This document shows, piece by piece, positions 12,772 through 19,314 of a stretch of DNA of 64,000 bases (position 1 is its first letter; every line of letters begins with the position of its first letter). The notes below the pieces were generated by a model. It did not search any database and was not told where the DNA came from. It worked only from the letters and a program-made list of their open reading frames with translations. The position numbers were made by a program, and so were the translations under genes. This DNA comes from Alphaproteobacteria bacterium (GTDB lineage: Bacteria > Pseudomonadota > Alphaproteobacteria > SP197). The stretch spans positions 1 to 64,000 of the forward strand of contig VGDP01000012.1 of assembly GCA_016869675.1 (NCBI GenBank), given 5' to 3'.

Positions 12772-13247
12772 ATGGCGCGGGGCGGAATCATGGTGGTGAC
12801 GGGCGGCAGCCGGGGCATCGGCGCCGCCATCGCGCTGCTGAGGGGGAGCGCGGCTGGGACGTGTGCGTCAACTTCACCGCCACGGCCGATCGCGCCGAAG
12901 TCGTGGCCGCCAAGATCAGGGCCCAGGGGCGCCAGGCCATCGCCGTGCGCGCGGACGTGGCAAAGCCGGAGGACGTCGAGCGCCTGTTCGCCGAGACCGA
13001 CCGGCAGCTCGGGTGCGTCGAGGCGCTGGTCAACAACGCGGCGATCTCGATCGAGGCGCCTATCGCCGACCATGACCCGGCGGTCATGCGGCGCATCATC
13101 GACACCAACCTGCTCAACCCGGCGCTCACCTGCCGCCAGGCGATCCGCCGCATGGCGACGCGGCGCGGCGGTGCGGGCGGCGTGATCGTCAACATCTCGG
13201 CGATTTCCGACGTTCCTCGGCGCACGTCCGGCCCGAATGCTCCCTGA
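12772..13247 (+). pseudogene. SDR-family oxidoreductase, frameshifted and C-terminally truncated
   Basis: A strong Shine-Dalgarno (GGAGGAGG) precedes an ATG opening MARGGIMVVTGGSRGIGAA, the Rossmann TGxxxGIG motif. Near 12840, in a run of five Gs, the frame shifts by one base into WDVCVNFTATADRAEVV, then VNNAAIS (NNAG motif) and a serine-strand start VIVNISAIS. It then stops at 13247 before the catalytic YxxxK and the last third of a normal SDR (about 250 residues). No matching C-terminal part follows; the convergent pip gene ends 11 bases later. It is therefore truncated as well as frameshifted. Confidence 0.85.
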
Positions 13248-13257
13248 TACGGTGGGA

Positions 13258-14211
13258 CTACGCCACGTCCCTTAGCCGTTCCATAGCGGCGACCAGCGCC
13301 TCGCGGATGCCGATGTCGAACGAGGAGTGGCCGGCGTCGGGCACGCTGACATAGTAGGCCTCGGGCCATGCCAGATGCAGGTCGTAGGCGTCGCATGGCG
13401 GGCAGTTGAAGTCGTCCTGGCCCTGGACGATGGCGCCGGGCATGCCGCGCAGGCGGTCGGCGCGGGTCAGCAGCGCCTGCTCGCCCGTGAAGCCGTGCCG
13501 GTGCATGTAGACGGCGGCGATGCGCCCCGACGCCCGTTCGACCGCCGGGTCGTCGAACGTCCATGTGATCGCGGGATCGGGGCGCCGGGTGGCGCCGCAC
13601 AGATGCGCGTGTTGGTTCCACGCCCGGATCACCGGCATGTGCACGGCCGGGTCCGGGTCCAGGATCAGGCGCTCCAAGGCGGCCGAGGGGTCGGCGCGCT
13701 CGGCCTCGGGGATCGCCGCCATCAGGAGCGCCCAGGCCTCGGGGCGCACCAGGCGGGAATCGCGGAAGTACCAGCCGTCATCGAGCCCGTGGCCGAGCGA
13801 GACGCCGCGCACCACCAGGGCGCGGCACCGCTCCGGGTGGGTCACCGCGTAAGCGAGCGCGAGCGTCGAGCCCCATGATCCGCCGAACACGATCCAGCGG
13901 TCGATGCCGAACAGGGAACGCAGGTGCTCGATGTCCGCCACCAAGTGGGCCGGCGTGTTGGCGGCGAGTTCGCCGAGCGGCGTCGAGCGCCACGACCCGC
14001 GCTGGTCGAAGGCGATCAGGCGGTAGTGGTCGGGGTCGAAGAAACGGCGCACGTGCGGCGACCAGGCGCTGCCCGGCCCGCCGTGCAAGAAGACCACGGG
14101 GACACCCCTCGGGTTGCCCGACTGTTCCACGTGAAGCGTGTGGATCGGGTCCACCGGCACGCGGCGCACGTCGAACGGCTCGATCGGCGGGTAGAGCGCG
14201 GTGCGAGTCAT
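13258..14211 (-). CDS. pip: Proline iminopeptidase
   Basis: 317-residue alpha/beta-hydrolase of family S33. Visible motifs are the oxyanion-hole FLHGGPGSAW (residues 41-50), nucleophile Ser112 in FGGSWGST, the acid in VQGQDDFNCPP and the His in DAGHSSFD. The length and the opening YPPIEPFDVRRVPVD are typical. It removes N-terminal proline from peptides in the cytoplasm. The usual DQRGCGRS/DQRGSGRS loop reads DQRGSWRS, a small oddity near the active site. The start overlaps the stop of the upstream acyl-CoA synthetase-like gene (ATGA), so the two are translationally coupled. Confidence 0.93.
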   Translation of the reverse strand: MTRTALYPPIEPFDVRRVPVDPIHTLHVEQSGNPRGVPVVFLHGGPGSAWSPHVRRFFDPDHYRLIAFDQRGSWRSTPLGELAANTPAHLVADIEHLRSLFGIDRWIVFGGSWGSTLALAYAVTHPERCRALVVRGVSLGHGLDDGWYFRDSRLVRPEAWALLMAAIPEAERADPSAALERLILDPDPAVHMPVIRAWNQHAHLCGATRRPDPAITWTFDDPAVERASGRIAAVYMHRHGFTGEQALLTRADRLRGMPGAIVQGQDDFNCPPCDAYDLHLAWPEAYYVSVPDAGHSSFDIGIREALVAAMERLRDVA

Positions 14212-16016
14212 GGCCGGACCCCCGCGCCGGGCGCGATCGCGCCGTCGCGGTCCAGATGGAGCGCCACCGCCAGGCGCGACGTGCCCTCGAGCAGCGGCGC
14301 CGCACGGGCCAAGCGGACGATCGCCCCGACCAGCGCCGCGCGGTCCCCAAGGTCCAGGCCCAGTCCTCCAACCAGCCGTTCGGCCTCGGCTTCGTCGCAC
14401 GGCGCCAGCACGGCGCGCTCGGCCGCCACGGGCCAAACGACCCGCATGGTGACCAGCGGGCCGAAATCGGCGTCGCGCGCCGCCTCCAGCACGATCGGCA
14501 CGGACGGACGGGCAACCGTGCCGCCACCCAGGAGCTCGCGCGCCTCGGCATCGTCGAGCGAGCGCCCATCCGCCAAACGCGCGCGCCAGCGCGCGCCTTC
14601 GGCGTCGTCCAGCGGGCCGGGCGGCGCCGGCCGAGGTCGCGCGAGGCCGTTGCGGTACGCGAACAGGTGCCGGATTGCCTTGAGCGCCATGTCGGTGCTG
14701 TCGAGCAGCGGCACGCCGGCGCGCGTCATGGCGACTGCCGTGTCGTTGCCGCCACGCCCCATGTCGTTGACCGCCAGCACCGGCTTGCCGGTGCGCTTGG
14801 CCGCCTCGAGGCACAGCTTGGGGTAGCCGCCGGTCAGATCCTCGGCCCACGCGATGTCGCCGAAGAAGGCGACGAGCGCGGTCGCCGGGTCCTCGGCCAG
14901 GGCGACCATGCAATCGGTGAACACCGCTTCGTAATCGCGCCCCGTGCCCCAGGCGTCGATCGGGTTGACCGGCGCCAGCCCGAACTCCAGCCTCTCGGCC
15001 AGGCGCGCCTGGGTCGCCGGCCCGATCCGCGCGATCGGCACGCCCTCGCCCGCCGCCTGGTCGAGCAGGGCGCCCCGCACGCCCCCGGAATCGAGGATCG
15101 CGCCCAACCCGCCCGGACCGGGGCGGCGCGGACCCGCGAAGGCGATCAGGGTTGCCGCCATCTCATGGGTGCTGGCGACGCGGATGACGCCATGGCGGTC
15201 GAACACGGCCTGGTACGCCGGGTCCGCGCCGACGCGGGCGTTGGAGTGGACGCGCGCCAGCGCCGCCGCCGCCGGGCTGCGGCCGACCTTTAGCGCCACG
15301 ACCGGGATATCCCGTTCCCGCGCCTTGTCCAGCGCGGCGATGAAACGCTCGGGATCGCGTACCTGCTCGAGGAACAGGGCGATCACCCGGGTCGTCGGCT
15401 GGTCGAGCGCGTAGTCCATGTATTCGGCGGTCGTGGTGACCAGCTCCTGGCCCGCCGAGACGGTCAGGTTGTAGCCGAGCCGCCGGTCGATGCCGACAAT
15501 CTCGCCGTAGACCGTGCCGGAATGGGTGATCAGGGTGATGTTGCCGGGTGCCAGCCAGGCCGGCGTCTCGAACGCGCCGACGTTCGCCTTGGCATCAAGG
15601 TTATAGAAGCCCATGCCGTTGCCGCCGCACACGTGCATGCCGGCGTCCCGCGCGATCGCGGCCAGCCGACCGAGCAGGCGCCGGTCGGGATCGTCCTCGA
15701 CATAGCAGCTGGCGAACACCACGGCGGCCCGCGCTCCCAGCTTGGCGGCGGCGACGAACTGCTCCTCCAGCCGGTGGCTGGCGACGCCCAAGCTGACCAG
15801 GTCGACTGGCTCGGGCAGGTCGTCGAGCGACGGGAAGCACGTGACCCCCTCGATCTCGCGGTAGTTCGGGTTGACCGCATAGACGCGACCCTGGAAGCCG
15901 CCCTTGCGCAGCTCGCGCAGCATGCTGTTGCCCTGGGTGCCGGGCTTCTGGGAAGCCCCGACCAGGGCCACGGAGCGCGGCGCGAGCAGAGGATCGAGGC
16001 GGTGGGAGGAGGTCAC
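14208..16016 (-). CDS. ADP-forming acyl-CoA synthetase-like protein (Acd alpha-type, short ATP-grasp tail)
   Basis: 602 residues. The N-terminus is a CoA-binding domain (RSVALVGASQKPGTQGNSML, YAVNPNYREIEGV), followed by two succinyl-CoA-ligase-like domains (NITLITHSGTVYGE, ALKVGRSPAAA). The swinging phosphohistidine position is probably the His in RVHSNARVG, aligning with SHTGALAG of acetyl-CoA synthetases. The C-terminal part (DAEARELLGGG onwards) resembles only a shortened ATP-grasp module. The family makes or cleaves acyl-CoA with ADP/ATP. It starts divergently from the regulator-Rieske fusion, so the shared intergenic palindrome could control it too. Confidence 0.82.
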   Translation of the reverse strand: MTSSHRLDPLLAPRSVALVGASQKPGTQGNSMLRELRKGGFQGRVYAVNPNYREIEGVTCFPSLDDLPEPVDLVSLGVASHRLEEQFVAAAKLGARAAVVFASCYVEDDPDRRLLGRLAAIARDAGMHVCGGNGMGFYNLDAKANVGAFETPAWLAPGNITLITHSGTVYGEIVGIDRRLGYNLTVSAGQELVTTTAEYMDYALDQPTTRVIALFLEQVRDPERFIAALDKARERDIPVVALKVGRSPAAAALARVHSNARVGADPAYQAVFDRHGVIRVASTHEMAATLIAFAGPRRPGPGGLGAILDSGGVRGALLDQAAGEGVPIARIGPATQARLAERLEFGLAPVNPIDAWGTGRDYEAVFTDCMVALAEDPATALVAFFGDIAWAEDLTGGYPKLCLEAAKRTGKPVLAVNDMGRGGNDTAVAMTRAGVPLLDSTDMALKAIRHLFAYRNGLARPRPAPPGPLDDAEGARWRARLADGRSLDDAEARELLGGGTVARPSVPIVLEAARDADFGPLVTMRVVWPVAAERAVLAPCDEAEAERLVGGLGLDLGDRAALVGAIVRLARAAPLLEGTSRLAVALHLDRDGAIAPGAGVRP

Positions 16017-16134: not shown

Positions 16135-16158
16135 ATGATTGAATGGACATTCAATCAT
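16135..16158. promoter_or_regulatory. 24-bp palindromic operator candidate (BetI-like)
   Basis: ATGATTGAATG, two bases (GA) and CATTCAATCAT form a perfect inverted repeat with 11-base arms. It lies in an AT-rich stretch (about 16135-16200) that stands out from the GC-rich surroundings, between the divergent starts of the acyl-CoA synthetase-like gene and the regulator-Rieske fusion. The TGATTGAA...TTCAATCA pattern resembles operators described for BetI-type TetR repressors. A possible -10 (TATCAT, 16171-16176) follows the right arm by 12 bases, so a bound repressor could block RNA polymerase. Autoregulation by the fusion protein is an inference. Confidence 0.7.
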
Positions 16159-16201: not shown

Positions 16202-18073
16202 ATGAAGGCTCTCACGGTAGCACGGACCGAGCCGCGTAGCGGCGTTGACAAGCGCGAGGATTCGCGGCGTCAGCAGTTGATCGAGGCGACCATAGCTGTG
16301 ATCGGCAAGCGCGGCTACGCGCGCATGACGTTGGCCGACGTGACCGACCAAGCCAAGGTGAGCCGCGGCATCGCCAACTTCTATTTCAAGAGCAAGGAAG
16401 CCTTGCTGCTCGCCACCCTTGAGCACCTGACCGAGGAGTACACTGCGATCTGGCGCAAGGCGATCGCGGATACGGGCAGCGACCCGGCCAGCCGCCTGGA
16501 CGCCCTGATCGAGGCCGAGTTCAGCACCAAGGTTTGCCGGCGCGACCGCGTGGCCGCGTGGTTCGCGTTCTGGGGCGAGGCGCGCACGCGCAAGGCCTAC
16601 GCCCGCGTCTGCACGGTGACCGACGAGGAGTACTTCCGCGCCGTGGTCGGGCTGGTGAGCGAGCTGGCGCGCGAGGACGGCCAGGACGGGTCGAGCGCCG
16701 AGCCCGTGGCCAACGGTCTGTGCGCCATGATGAACGGCTTCCTGCACGACTACCTGCTGGGCGCCGACGGCTTCGACCGCGCCGCCGCGCGGCGCGCCTG
16801 CCGCATCTACCTGGCCAGTCTGTTCCCGGCCGCCTTCCAGGACCGGGTCGAGCGCGACGAAGGCCCACGCCGCGTGGCTAGACCCAAGAGCCCCCGCCCG
16901 GTCGAGGCGGCCGCCGCCGCCACGGCCGAGACCCTGTCCGCCTGGACCTACCAGGACGCTAGGTTCCATGCGCTGGAGCGCGAGCACATCTTCAAGACGA
17001 CATGGCAACTGGTCGGCCACGTCAGCGAGGTGCCGGCGGTGGGCGACTACGCCACCCTGGTCGTGGCCGGCGAGCGCGCCGTGGTGGTGCGCGGCGAGGA
17101 CGGCGTGCCGCGCGCCTTCGTCAACACCTGCCGGCATCGCGCGGCGTGCGTGGCGCCGGCCGAGCGCGGCCACTGCAACCGCGCGATCGTATGCCCGTAC
17201 CACGGCTGGAACTACGGCTTCGACGGTCGCCTGATCGCCGTACCCGACGAGCCGTCGTTCCCCAGCCTGGACCGGACCCGCTTCGGTCTGACGCCCCTGG
17301 AGACCGAGACCTGGCACGGCTTCATCTTCGTGCGCTTCGATGGTGGCGGGCCATCGGTGGCGACCATGATGGCCCCCTACGAGGCGGAGCTCGCGCCCTA
17401 CCGTCTGGCCGACATGGTGCCGGAAGGCGATGGCGTGTGGAGCGACAGCACCAACGCCGACTGGAAGAACGTCATGGACAATTACCTGGAGGGCTACCAC
17501 CTGCCGGTGGGCCATCCGGGTCTGCAGCGGCTGTTCGGCGGCACCTACGAGGTCGCCGTGGCCGACCACGGCGCCTCGCGCGCCACGTCGAACCTGCGGG
17601 AGGCGCCGTCGCGCGTCTGGAGCGAGCGCGCCTATCAACGCCTGCTACCCGAGGCTTTGCACCTGCCGCCCGAGCGCCGGCGCGCCTGGGTCTATTACGC
17701 GCTGTTCCCCAACACCGCGTTCAACGTCTACCCGCACAACGTGAGCTTCTTCCAGGTGCTGCCTGATGGGCCGGGTCGCGCCACCGTGCGGGCACGCGCC
17801 TACAGCCTGCCGGACGAACGTCGTGCCATGCGCGCGGCCCGGTGGCTGGGCCAGCGCATCAACCACCGGGTCTACCTGGAGGACGAAGTGCTGGTGCGCG
17901 CGGTCCAGGGCGGCCTGGCCTCGACCGGCTACGAAGCCGGTGTGCTGTCCGAGCACGAGGCGTGTCTGCGCGCCTTCCACGACATGGTGCGCCGCCATCT
18001 GCCGGTGGCGCGCCTGCGCCAGCGCCCCGCGGATATGCGCCGTGACAACGCCGGCCGCCGAAAGTTCTCATGA
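16202..18073 (+). CDS. Fusion of BetI/TetR-type regulator and Rieske oxygenase alpha subunit
   Basis: One uninterrupted frame of 623 residues. Residues about 20-75 are a TetR helix-turn-helix (MTLADVTDQAKVSRGIANFYF), continuing through a BetI-type ligand domain to CRIYLASLFPAAF (about 205-220). A charged, Ala/Pro-rich linker of some 35 residues leads into a complete Rieske oxygenase starting ETLSAWTYQD. The [2Fe-2S] ligands are Cys310, His312, Cys331 and His334. The mononuclear iron ligands are His433 and His438 (EGYHLPVGH), and probably Asp561 (YLEDEVLV). Both halves look functional. I chose the ATG at 16202; an upstream TTG at 16139 lies inside the operator-like palindrome. The stop overlaps the start of the next Rieske gene (ATGA). 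The separate TetR at 58.45 kb ends where the linker begins here. Confidence 0.88.
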   Translation: MKALTVARTEPRSGVDKREDSRRQQLIEATIAVIGKRGYARMTLADVTDQAKVSRGIANFYFKSKEALLLATLEHLTEEYTAIWRKAIADTGSDPASRLDALIEAEFSTKVCRRDRVAAWFAFWGEARTRKAYARVCTVTDEEYFRAVVGLVSELAREDGQDGSSAEPVANGLCAMMNGFLHDYLLGADGFDRAAARRACRIYLASLFPAAFQDRVERDEGPRRVARPKSPRPVEAAAAATAETLSAWTYQDARFHALEREHIFKTTWQLVGHVSEVPAVGDYATLVVAGERAVVVRGEDGVPRAFVNTCRHRAACVAPAERGHCNRAIVCPYHGWNYGFDGRLIAVPDEPSFPSLDRTRFGLTPLETETWHGFIFVRFDGGGPSVATMMAPYEAELAPYRLADMVPEGDGVWSDSTNADWKNVMDNYLEGYHLPVGHPGLQRLFGGTYEVAVADHGASRATSNLREAPSRVWSERAYQRLLPEALHLPPERRRAWVYYALFPNTAFNVYPHNVSFFQVLPDGPGRATVRARAYSLPDERRAMRAARWLGQRINHRVYLEDEVLVRAVQGGLASTGYEAGVLSEHEACLRAFHDMVRRHLPVARLRQRPADMRRDNAGRRKFS

Positions 18074-19314
18074 TGGGAGTGAAAGCCATGACCAGCGCCG
18101 ATGATCTCGCGGGCACCATGACGCCCGACACCGAGACTGTTTCGCCCGGCGCCATCGCGGACACGGTCGAGACCCTGCCCGCCTGGACCTACGACAACCA
18201 GGAGTTCTTCGCGCTCGAGCGCGAACGGTTGTTCATGCGTAACTGGCAGCTCGTCTGCCACGTCAGCGACGTGGCCAAGCCGGGCGACTACATGACCCTG
18301 GATCTTCTGGGCGAGCGCGCCGCCGTGGTGCGCGGTCGCGACGACAAGCTGCGCGCCTTCGTCAACGTCTGCCGCCACCGGGCGGCCCGGGTCCTGGCCG
18401 GCGACAAGGGGACGTGCCAGGGCCGCATCGTGTGCCCGTACCACGGCTGGAACTACGACCTGGACGGCAAGCTGAAGGCCGTGCCGGCCGAGACCTCGTT
18501 CCCCGGGCTCAACAAGGCCAAGCTCGGCCTGGTGCCGCTGGCGCTCGAGATTGCCCACGGCTTCGTCTTCGTGCGCTTCGACGGCAGCGGCCCGTCCATG
18601 GCTGAAATCCTGGCATCCGTCGCCGACATGCTGCGCCACTACCGCATCGAGGAGATGGTGCCGATCGGCTCGGTCTGGTGGCGCGAGATCGAAGTCGACT
18701 GGAAGAACGTGATGGACAACTACCTTGAAGGCTATCACGTACCCCTCGGGCATCCGGGTCTGTTGCGTCTGTTCGGCCGCGACTACCGCGTCGCCACGCA
18801 CCCGCACGGTGTCTCGCTCGCGCGTGCCGAACTGCGCGACAAGGAGTCGGACAACTGGTCCGAGCGCGCCTACCAGCGCCTGCTGCCCGAGTTCACCCAT
18901 CTGCCCGAGGATCTGCGCTGGTCGTGGCAGTACGTCACCTGGTTCCCCAACGGCTCAATCGAGCTCTACCCCGAGCAGGTTGCGTTCTTCCAGGTGATCC
19001 CCGAACGGCCGGGCAAGTGTTGGGTGCGCGCCGTGTCGTATGGCCTGCCGGACGACCGGCGCGAGGTGAGCGCGGCACGTTTCGCCAACTGGCGGATCAA
19101 CGACAAGGTCCAGGCGGAGGACGAGTTCCTGGTCCAGGACGTCCAGGAAGGGCTGAAATCGCGCAGCTATTCGGTGGGCTATCTGTCGGAGAAGGAAGTC
19201 GCGCTGCGCCTGTTCCACGACACGCTGCGCAGCCATTTGCCGGCTGCCTGGTCGCGCAAGGAGCCGGCGCCCGGTTCGGTCGAAGCCGTCGACCAGGCAA
19301 TGACCGCGAGCTGA
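18070..19314 (+). CDS. Rieske [2Fe-2S] aromatic-ring-hydroxylating-type oxygenase, alpha subunit
   Basis: 414 residues, clearly paralogous to the C-terminal half of the preceding fusion. Rieske ligands are Cys101, His103, Cys122 and His125; catalytic iron ligands are His223 and His228 (EGYHVPLGH), and Asp351 (AEDEFLVQ). The His-to-Asp spacing is the same as in the fusion. This branch includes GbcA-like and carnitine/stachydrine-type oxygenases that demethylate or hydroxylate quaternary amines and N-methyl compounds. No reductase or ferredoxin gene is adjacent, so electrons must come from elsewhere. The start overlaps the upstream stop; ATG 18088, preceded by GGGAG, is an alternative. Confidence 0.93.
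   Translation: MMGVKAMTSADDLAGTMTPDTETVSPGAIADTVETLPAWTYDNQEFFALERERLFMRNWQLVCHVSDVAKPGDYMTLDLLGERAAVVRGRDDKLRAFVNVCRHRAARVLAGDKGTCQGRIVCPYHGWNYDLDGKLKAVPAETSFPGLNKAKLGLVPLALEIAHGFVFVRFDGSGPSMAEILASVADMLRHYRIEEMVPIGSVWWREIEVDWKNVMDNYLEGYHVPLGHPGLLRLFGRDYRVATHPHGVSLARAELRDKESDNWSERAYQRLLPEFTHLPEDLRWSWQYVTWFPNGSIELYPEQVAFFQVIPERPGKCWVRAVSYGLPDDRREVSAARFANWRINDKVQAEDEFLVQDVQEGLKSRSYSVGYLSEKEVALRLFHDTLRSHLPAAWSRKEPAPGSVEAVDQAMTAS

Follow-up and report, generated by a model that had tools for sequence, protein, structure and literature searches.

A conserved family of TetR–Rieske oxygenase fusion proteins: candidate autoregulated repressor-enzymes for methylated amines

Gene organization of the locus

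The DNA analysed is a 64,000-nucleotide stretch from an alphaproteobacterium (hereafter the window), in which a single open frame joins a TetR-type regulator to a Rieske oxygenase; a stand-alone Rieske oxygenase gene follows the fused gene, and an acyl-CoA synthetase gene is divergently transcribed on its other side. The features are listed below.

14208..16016, minus strand: divergent acyl-CoA synthetase, ADP-forming type (CoA-binding and ligase-like domains)
16135..16158, no strand assigned: perfect inverted repeat ATGATTGAATG-GA-CATTCAATCAT (= ATGATTGAATGGACATTCAATCAT), candidate operator; 0 expected in shuffles
16202..18073, plus strand: fused TetR-Rieske oxygenase gene, open frame of 623 aa (Pfam; AlphaFold model)
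16277..16414, plus strand: TetR_N helix-turn-helix, residues 26-71 (Pfam E 1.7e-11)
16484..16825, plus strand: TetR_C_6, BetI-type ligand domain, residues 95-208 (Pfam E 8.9e-22; NCBIfam BetI models)
16838..16930, plus strand: linker, residues 213-243 (31 aa), disordered and unconserved
17000..17266, plus strand: Rieske [2Fe-2S] domain, residues 267-355, with C310, H312, C331 and H334
17450..18001, plus strand: catalytic domain, residues 417-600, with H433, H438, D561, bridging E430, and Y428
18070..19314, plus strand: stand-alone Rieske oxygenase paralogue, 56% identical to the fused Rieske half, its start overlapping the fused stop codon (ATGA)

An earlier note on this DNA had placed the paralogous Rieske gene at 18.07 kb, where its start was located at 18070, and the stand-alone TetR gene that it used for comparison is present near 58.5 kb. 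The divergent acyl-CoA synthetase arrangement is repeated in loci L021 and L103; next to the fused gene of the window no gene for a reductase was recognised. Neighbouring genes across the loci encode a crotonobetainyl-CoA-dehydrogenase-like acyl-CoA dehydrogenase, a GcvT protein resembling DMSP/TMAO demethylases, a weak MTHFR match, an MtgC-like corrinoid protein and a PotF-like binding protein; these models were matched below equivalog cut-offs and therefore give the enzyme class only, not the exact substrate. Judged by these matches the neighbourhoods fit methylated-amine catabolism, with some of the genes adjoining unfused relatives and not fused ones (L141).

Elsewhere in the window, a short-chain dehydrogenase-like gene at 12790-13247 is split over two frames and ends early, and is possibly a frameshifted remnant. 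Genome G000 (3.5 Mb) holds many Rieske oxygenases: it gave 29 matches to the fused protein, the majority of them lying in the Rieske half.

Domain architecture and predicted structure

The frame at 16202-18073(+) has no internal stop across its 623 residues, and its four Pfam domains, the last being Ring_hydroxyl_A, all exceed gathering cut-offs; the domain order confirms the single TetR-Rieske frame described in the earlier note, and all seven of the iron ligands it listed (C310, H312, C331, H334, H433, H438, D561) are present. The protein is a member of the TetR family, having TetR_N and an all-helical ligand domain, and of the Rieske non-heme iron oxygenases, having the CxH/CxxH cluster ligands and a 2-His-1-carboxylate site. 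An AlphaFold model built with 25 fused sequences in the alignment (mean pLDDT 86.8) features two folded halves, with pLDDT mostly above 90 in both and below 50 at linker residues 222-239; the pTM of 0.62 would fit TetR and Rieske halves without a fixed mutual orientation. A linker of about 35 residues had been proposed; the linker is there, with a measured length of 31 residues.

Residue 225, within the linker, is encoded by a GTG codon. Separate production of the Rieske half from a start in the linker was considered and rejected, as 13 of 25 relatives have no linker start codon at all; a single chain is therefore expected.

Relationship to BetI and the quaternary-ammonium oxygenases

The TetR half matches the folds of 3e7q (Z 21.9) and of 4kwa, a TetR protein crystallised with choline (Z 20.3). 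The window protein passes the BetI model NF001978 (121.4 bits against a cut-off of 118) and fails the stricter TIGR03384 (122 against 201.3 bits), so that under the stricter model it does not count as BetI. Seven loci (L031, L032, L033, L034, L038, L049 and L096) encode BetI-type TetR proteins with about 100 extra C-terminal residues; this stretch has no Pfam match (L031 tested) and appears helix-turn-helix-like by eye.

The nearest solved folds to the Rieske half are Stc2 (stachydrine demethylase) and CntA (carnitine monooxygenase), at Z of about 35, and CntA is also the nearest by sequence; identity to glycine betaine monooxygenase GbcA was rejected (NF058607, 129 against 670 bits). Residues 426-433 of the window protein (DNYLEGYH) align with DNYMECYH of CntA, in which Y203 binds the quaternary ammonium group and E205 is the counterpart of the bridging glutamate (PMC7948474); Y428 and E430 of the window protein match these two residues. 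With the bridging glutamate, the cation-binding tyrosine and the fold in place, the window Rieske half is classed, by these features, with the quaternary-ammonium (Group V) oxygenases. Fused proteins from Myxococcota have Asp or another residue at the tyrosine position; since the tyrosine is not kept there, their substrate may be different from that of the window protein.

Distribution of the fusion

Fused TetR-Rieske frames were found 26 times in 23 genomes, the window's included, plus one frame ended by a contig end; by record titles and taxonomy the carriers are Alphaproteobacteria, Gammaproteobacteria and Myxococcota. The fused relatives in the 22 other genomes have 29-59% identity to the window protein. 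A scan of the genome collection, followed by frame analysis, gave fusions in L021-L025; a further one, in L029, is decayed. In the window's own family 5 of 16 genomes hold an entire fused frame, L101-L103 having been added by whole-genome searches, and in a sixth (G003) the fused frame L104 is interrupted by the contig end inside the TetR half. L127 is a second fused copy in G400, and further fusions came from whole-genome searches of the classes of G400 and G398. Among 385 sampled genomes of the window's class fusions were seen only in the window's own family; 379 genomes from the phylum to which G400 belongs yielded fusions in the class of G400 and nowhere else. Both counts are lower bounds owing to strict E-value limits. 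A search of a plasmid collection returned Rieske matches only, with no fused record.

The same two-domain frame repeated in 22 other genomes places the join far beyond chance, and rules out an artefact or a fusion private to one genome. The earlier note had suggested looking for both domains on one chain elsewhere, and would have abandoned its reading had this genome alone been fused among split relatives; fused relatives in three bacterial groups are what was found. The linker, whose conservation it had also named as a check, is not conserved: the linkers of the fused proteins share no motif and span roughly 15 to 54 residues. No published description of the TetR-Rieske architecture was found in a literature search confined to papers, mostly open-access ones; as far as that literature shows, the family is undescribed.

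Selection and origin

Both halves are under purifying selection, with dN/dS of 0.07-0.36 overall; close pairs give 0.07-0.19 for the TetR half and 0.12-0.18 for the Rieske half, and the comparison of the window with L021 gives 0.36 in both, a rough estimate due to divergence. Linkers have higher values (0.2-0.9). In trees of each half the fused proteins do not group as one clade; a single origin is rejected with p 0.0002 by the Rieske half and, weakly, with p 0.039 by the TetR half. This implies either repeated fusion or fusion followed by fission, between which the single-clade test does not separate. TetR and Rieske genes adjoin, unfused, in L027 and L028, and are plausible precursors; G399 carries a fused version (L024) and a split version (L027) in one genome. 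The existence of such split neighbours means that loss of a stop codon between adjacent genes may have begun each fusion, which is the part that stands of the earlier note's alternative of a recent stop-codon loss; as the whole story it is rejected by the conservation and by the dN/dS values of both halves.

The TetR half of L025 differs from those of L148 and L149 by a synonymous divergence of 0.32-0.35, against about 1.0 in the Rieske half, as if one half had been swapped by recombination or gene conversion.

Candidate operator and DNA recognition

The inverted repeat at 16135-16158 ends 43 bp ahead of the start codon of the fused gene, between it and the divergent acyl-CoA synthetase gene; given this position, both genes could be controlled by the palindrome, and the synthetase gene is a probable second target. 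With up to 2 mismatches allowed, the core of the candidate operator occurs nowhere else in the genome; the central 18 bp of the operator are unchanged in L021, and the TetR recognition helix is conserved across fused and unfused relatives. Across 26 upstream regions a 20-bp operator consensus reached a score of 280, where 200 shuffles gave no more than 242; it was drawn from sites before the unfused L030 and L132 and loosened on fused ones, and so is partly fitted to the tested sequences. For this reason a consensus-free palindrome test was run, whose sum of 212.5 compares with no more than 169 in any of 60 shuffles; both statistics include close relatives that have common sites by descent. 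Several fused genes have no clear upstream palindrome. A fixed 20-bp consensus for all members was rejected, as it fails in most Myxococcota members, where other palindrome forms occur (L146, L151, L127, L152): a long perfect inverted repeat, TATATGACCGTTCAA-TCAGAC-TTGAACGGTCATATA, lies upstream of the fused gene of L146, and other inverted-repeat forms precede those of L127, L151 and L152. The footprinted alphaproteobacterial BetI box, ATTGACG*CGTCAAT (PMC12442346), is similar in form to the window palindrome, which is a candidate site by sequence.

Fusions lacking catalytic iron ligands

The full catalytic set is present in 20 of the 26 fusions, the window's among them, and mononuclear iron ligands are lost in the other six: H433E in L024, H433F in L150, H433Y with H438L in L127, L151 and L152, and all of them in L029. 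Five of the six (L024, L150, L127, L151 and L152) retain the four Rieske cluster ligands. In the L127 group the catalytically dead Rieske half is still under purifying selection (dN/dS 0.14-0.18), which suggests a sensing or scaffolding role for some of the fused Rieske halves. Six fused relatives lack catalytic ligands, a sign that the fusion may not serve catalysis in every case. That an oxygenase half can be worth keeping on a repressor without catalysis is considered the most surprising part of this analysis. Genomes G400, G409, G410, G399 and G401 also carry an intact relative, which in the first three is a fused paralogue in addition to the ligand-loss fusion; a search of G404 at E 1e-60 gave none. 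An intact stand-alone paralogue adjoins the fused gene in the window and in L021, and is present within loci L158 and L159.

The decayed fusion at L029:9927-11654(-) has a recognisable TetR half and lies 4 kb from an intact stand-alone relative; its Rieske half has neither the cluster His pattern nor the iron site.

Proposed function and alternatives

The window protein is considered, with somewhat better than even confidence, to be a bifunctional autoregulated repressor-enzyme, comparable to PutA, for a methylated and probably quaternary amine. The BetI-type half would bind the palindrome and repress its own operon, made up of the fused gene and the Rieske paralogue behind it; the divergent acyl-CoA synthetase gene would probably be repressed as well. 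The amine substrate or a relative, held in the BetI-type pocket, would lift repression, and the carnitine/stachydrine-type Rieske half, acting by itself or together with that paralogue in mixed trimers, would then oxidise or demethylate the amine until its consumption brought repression back. The DNA binding, ligand, catalysis and autoregulation in this scheme are what we infer from the fused frames of 23 genomes in three groups, with selection on both halves; from the kept recognition helix, the upstream palindromes beyond shuffles and their likeness to the BetI box; from the CntA/Stc2-like Rieske half with Y428/E430, the 4kwa fit and the methylated-amine neighbours; and from seven intact ligands on an expected single chain. 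The earlier idea of a repressor carrying its catabolic enzyme gains support, as does the architecture; turnover or redox state may, as the earlier note also suggested, feed back on DNA binding. The linkers, variable and predicted to be disordered, give no sign that the halves are tightly coupled. Against this repressor-enzyme stand the unmatched symmetries of TetR dimers and Rieske trimers, the ligand loss in 6 of 26, the tyrosine absent in Myxococcota, the failure to identify an adjoining reductase gene, and palindromes that are not clear in every relative.

In a rival sensor model the fused Rieske half mainly senses: redox state, oxygen or substrate would be registered at the [2Fe-2S] cluster or in the substrate pocket and signalled to the TetR half, and the chemistry would fall to the downstream or another paralogous oxygenase. 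The five proteins that keep the cluster ligands but lose mononuclear iron ligands, the selection on the dead L127-group half, and the intact relatives and adjoining or same-locus paralogues all point this way. As an account of the window protein such a sensor is considered unlikely, as the whole catalytic set is kept in most fusions including the window's, no intact relative was found in G404 at the limit used, and a flexible, unconserved linker does not favour signal transfer. The broader idea that the state of the Rieske cluster or substrate controls the TetR half, with the dead L127, L151 and L152 proteins as dedicated Rieske-cluster transcription factors, is tentative and rather doubtful. 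Spacer-like linkers, the adjoining unfused pairs of L027 and L028 and the scattering of fused proteins over the trees would also suit passive fusion, in which repeated stop-codon loss leaves two independent halves whose sole benefit is equal amounts; the survival of the fusion through deep divergence in three groups, its recurrence, selection on both halves and the keeping of enzyme-dead halves make this quite improbable. Sequencing error or a chimeric assembly joining two genes can practically be dismissed, as independent assemblies agree (e.g., L024 in the genome of strain SYSU D60014) and nothing was found in its favour.

Comparison with known systems

PutA is a proline dehydrogenase that represses the put operon, combining a ribbon-helix-helix domain with a flavoenzyme and redox-driven membrane binding. 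SoxR, IscR and RsrR are iron-sulphur regulators, with which the fused proteins would have the use of a [2Fe-2S] cluster in common should the sensor model hold; to our knowledge none of them has a Rieske oxygenase domain, and we know of no example of Rieske clusters used in transcription factors. If the cluster or substrate pocket does control DNA binding, these proteins would be a new type of iron-sulphur sensor, and possibly a biosensor module for betaine- or carnitine-like compounds.

The window protein has TetR_N and TetR_C_6 in common with BetI, the choline-responsive TetR repressor; it differs in being fused to an oxygenase and in having no betAB genes beside its gene. Its Rieske half has only about 25% identity to CntA, Stc2 and GbcA, lacks the Cys206-Cys209 pair of CntA (a Cys pair found in some group members), and alone among them is joined to a DNA-binding half. 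By test the protein belongs to the TetR family and the quaternary-ammonium-type Rieske oxygenases, and it would work in the manner of PutA, in which a DNA-binding repressor and a catabolic enzyme on one chain control their own gene (PMC6978683). The two are not homologous, the present protein being a BetI-type TetR with a Rieske oxygenase known from sequence; the functional class of a conserved repressor and enzyme on one chain is nonetheless what the 26 frames in 23 genomes represent. Repressor-enzymes such as PutA are few, and a conserved TetR-oxygenase family, with its intact, catalytically dead, split and duplicated natural variants, would be a new way for a catabolic enzyme to report directly on the gene that encodes it.
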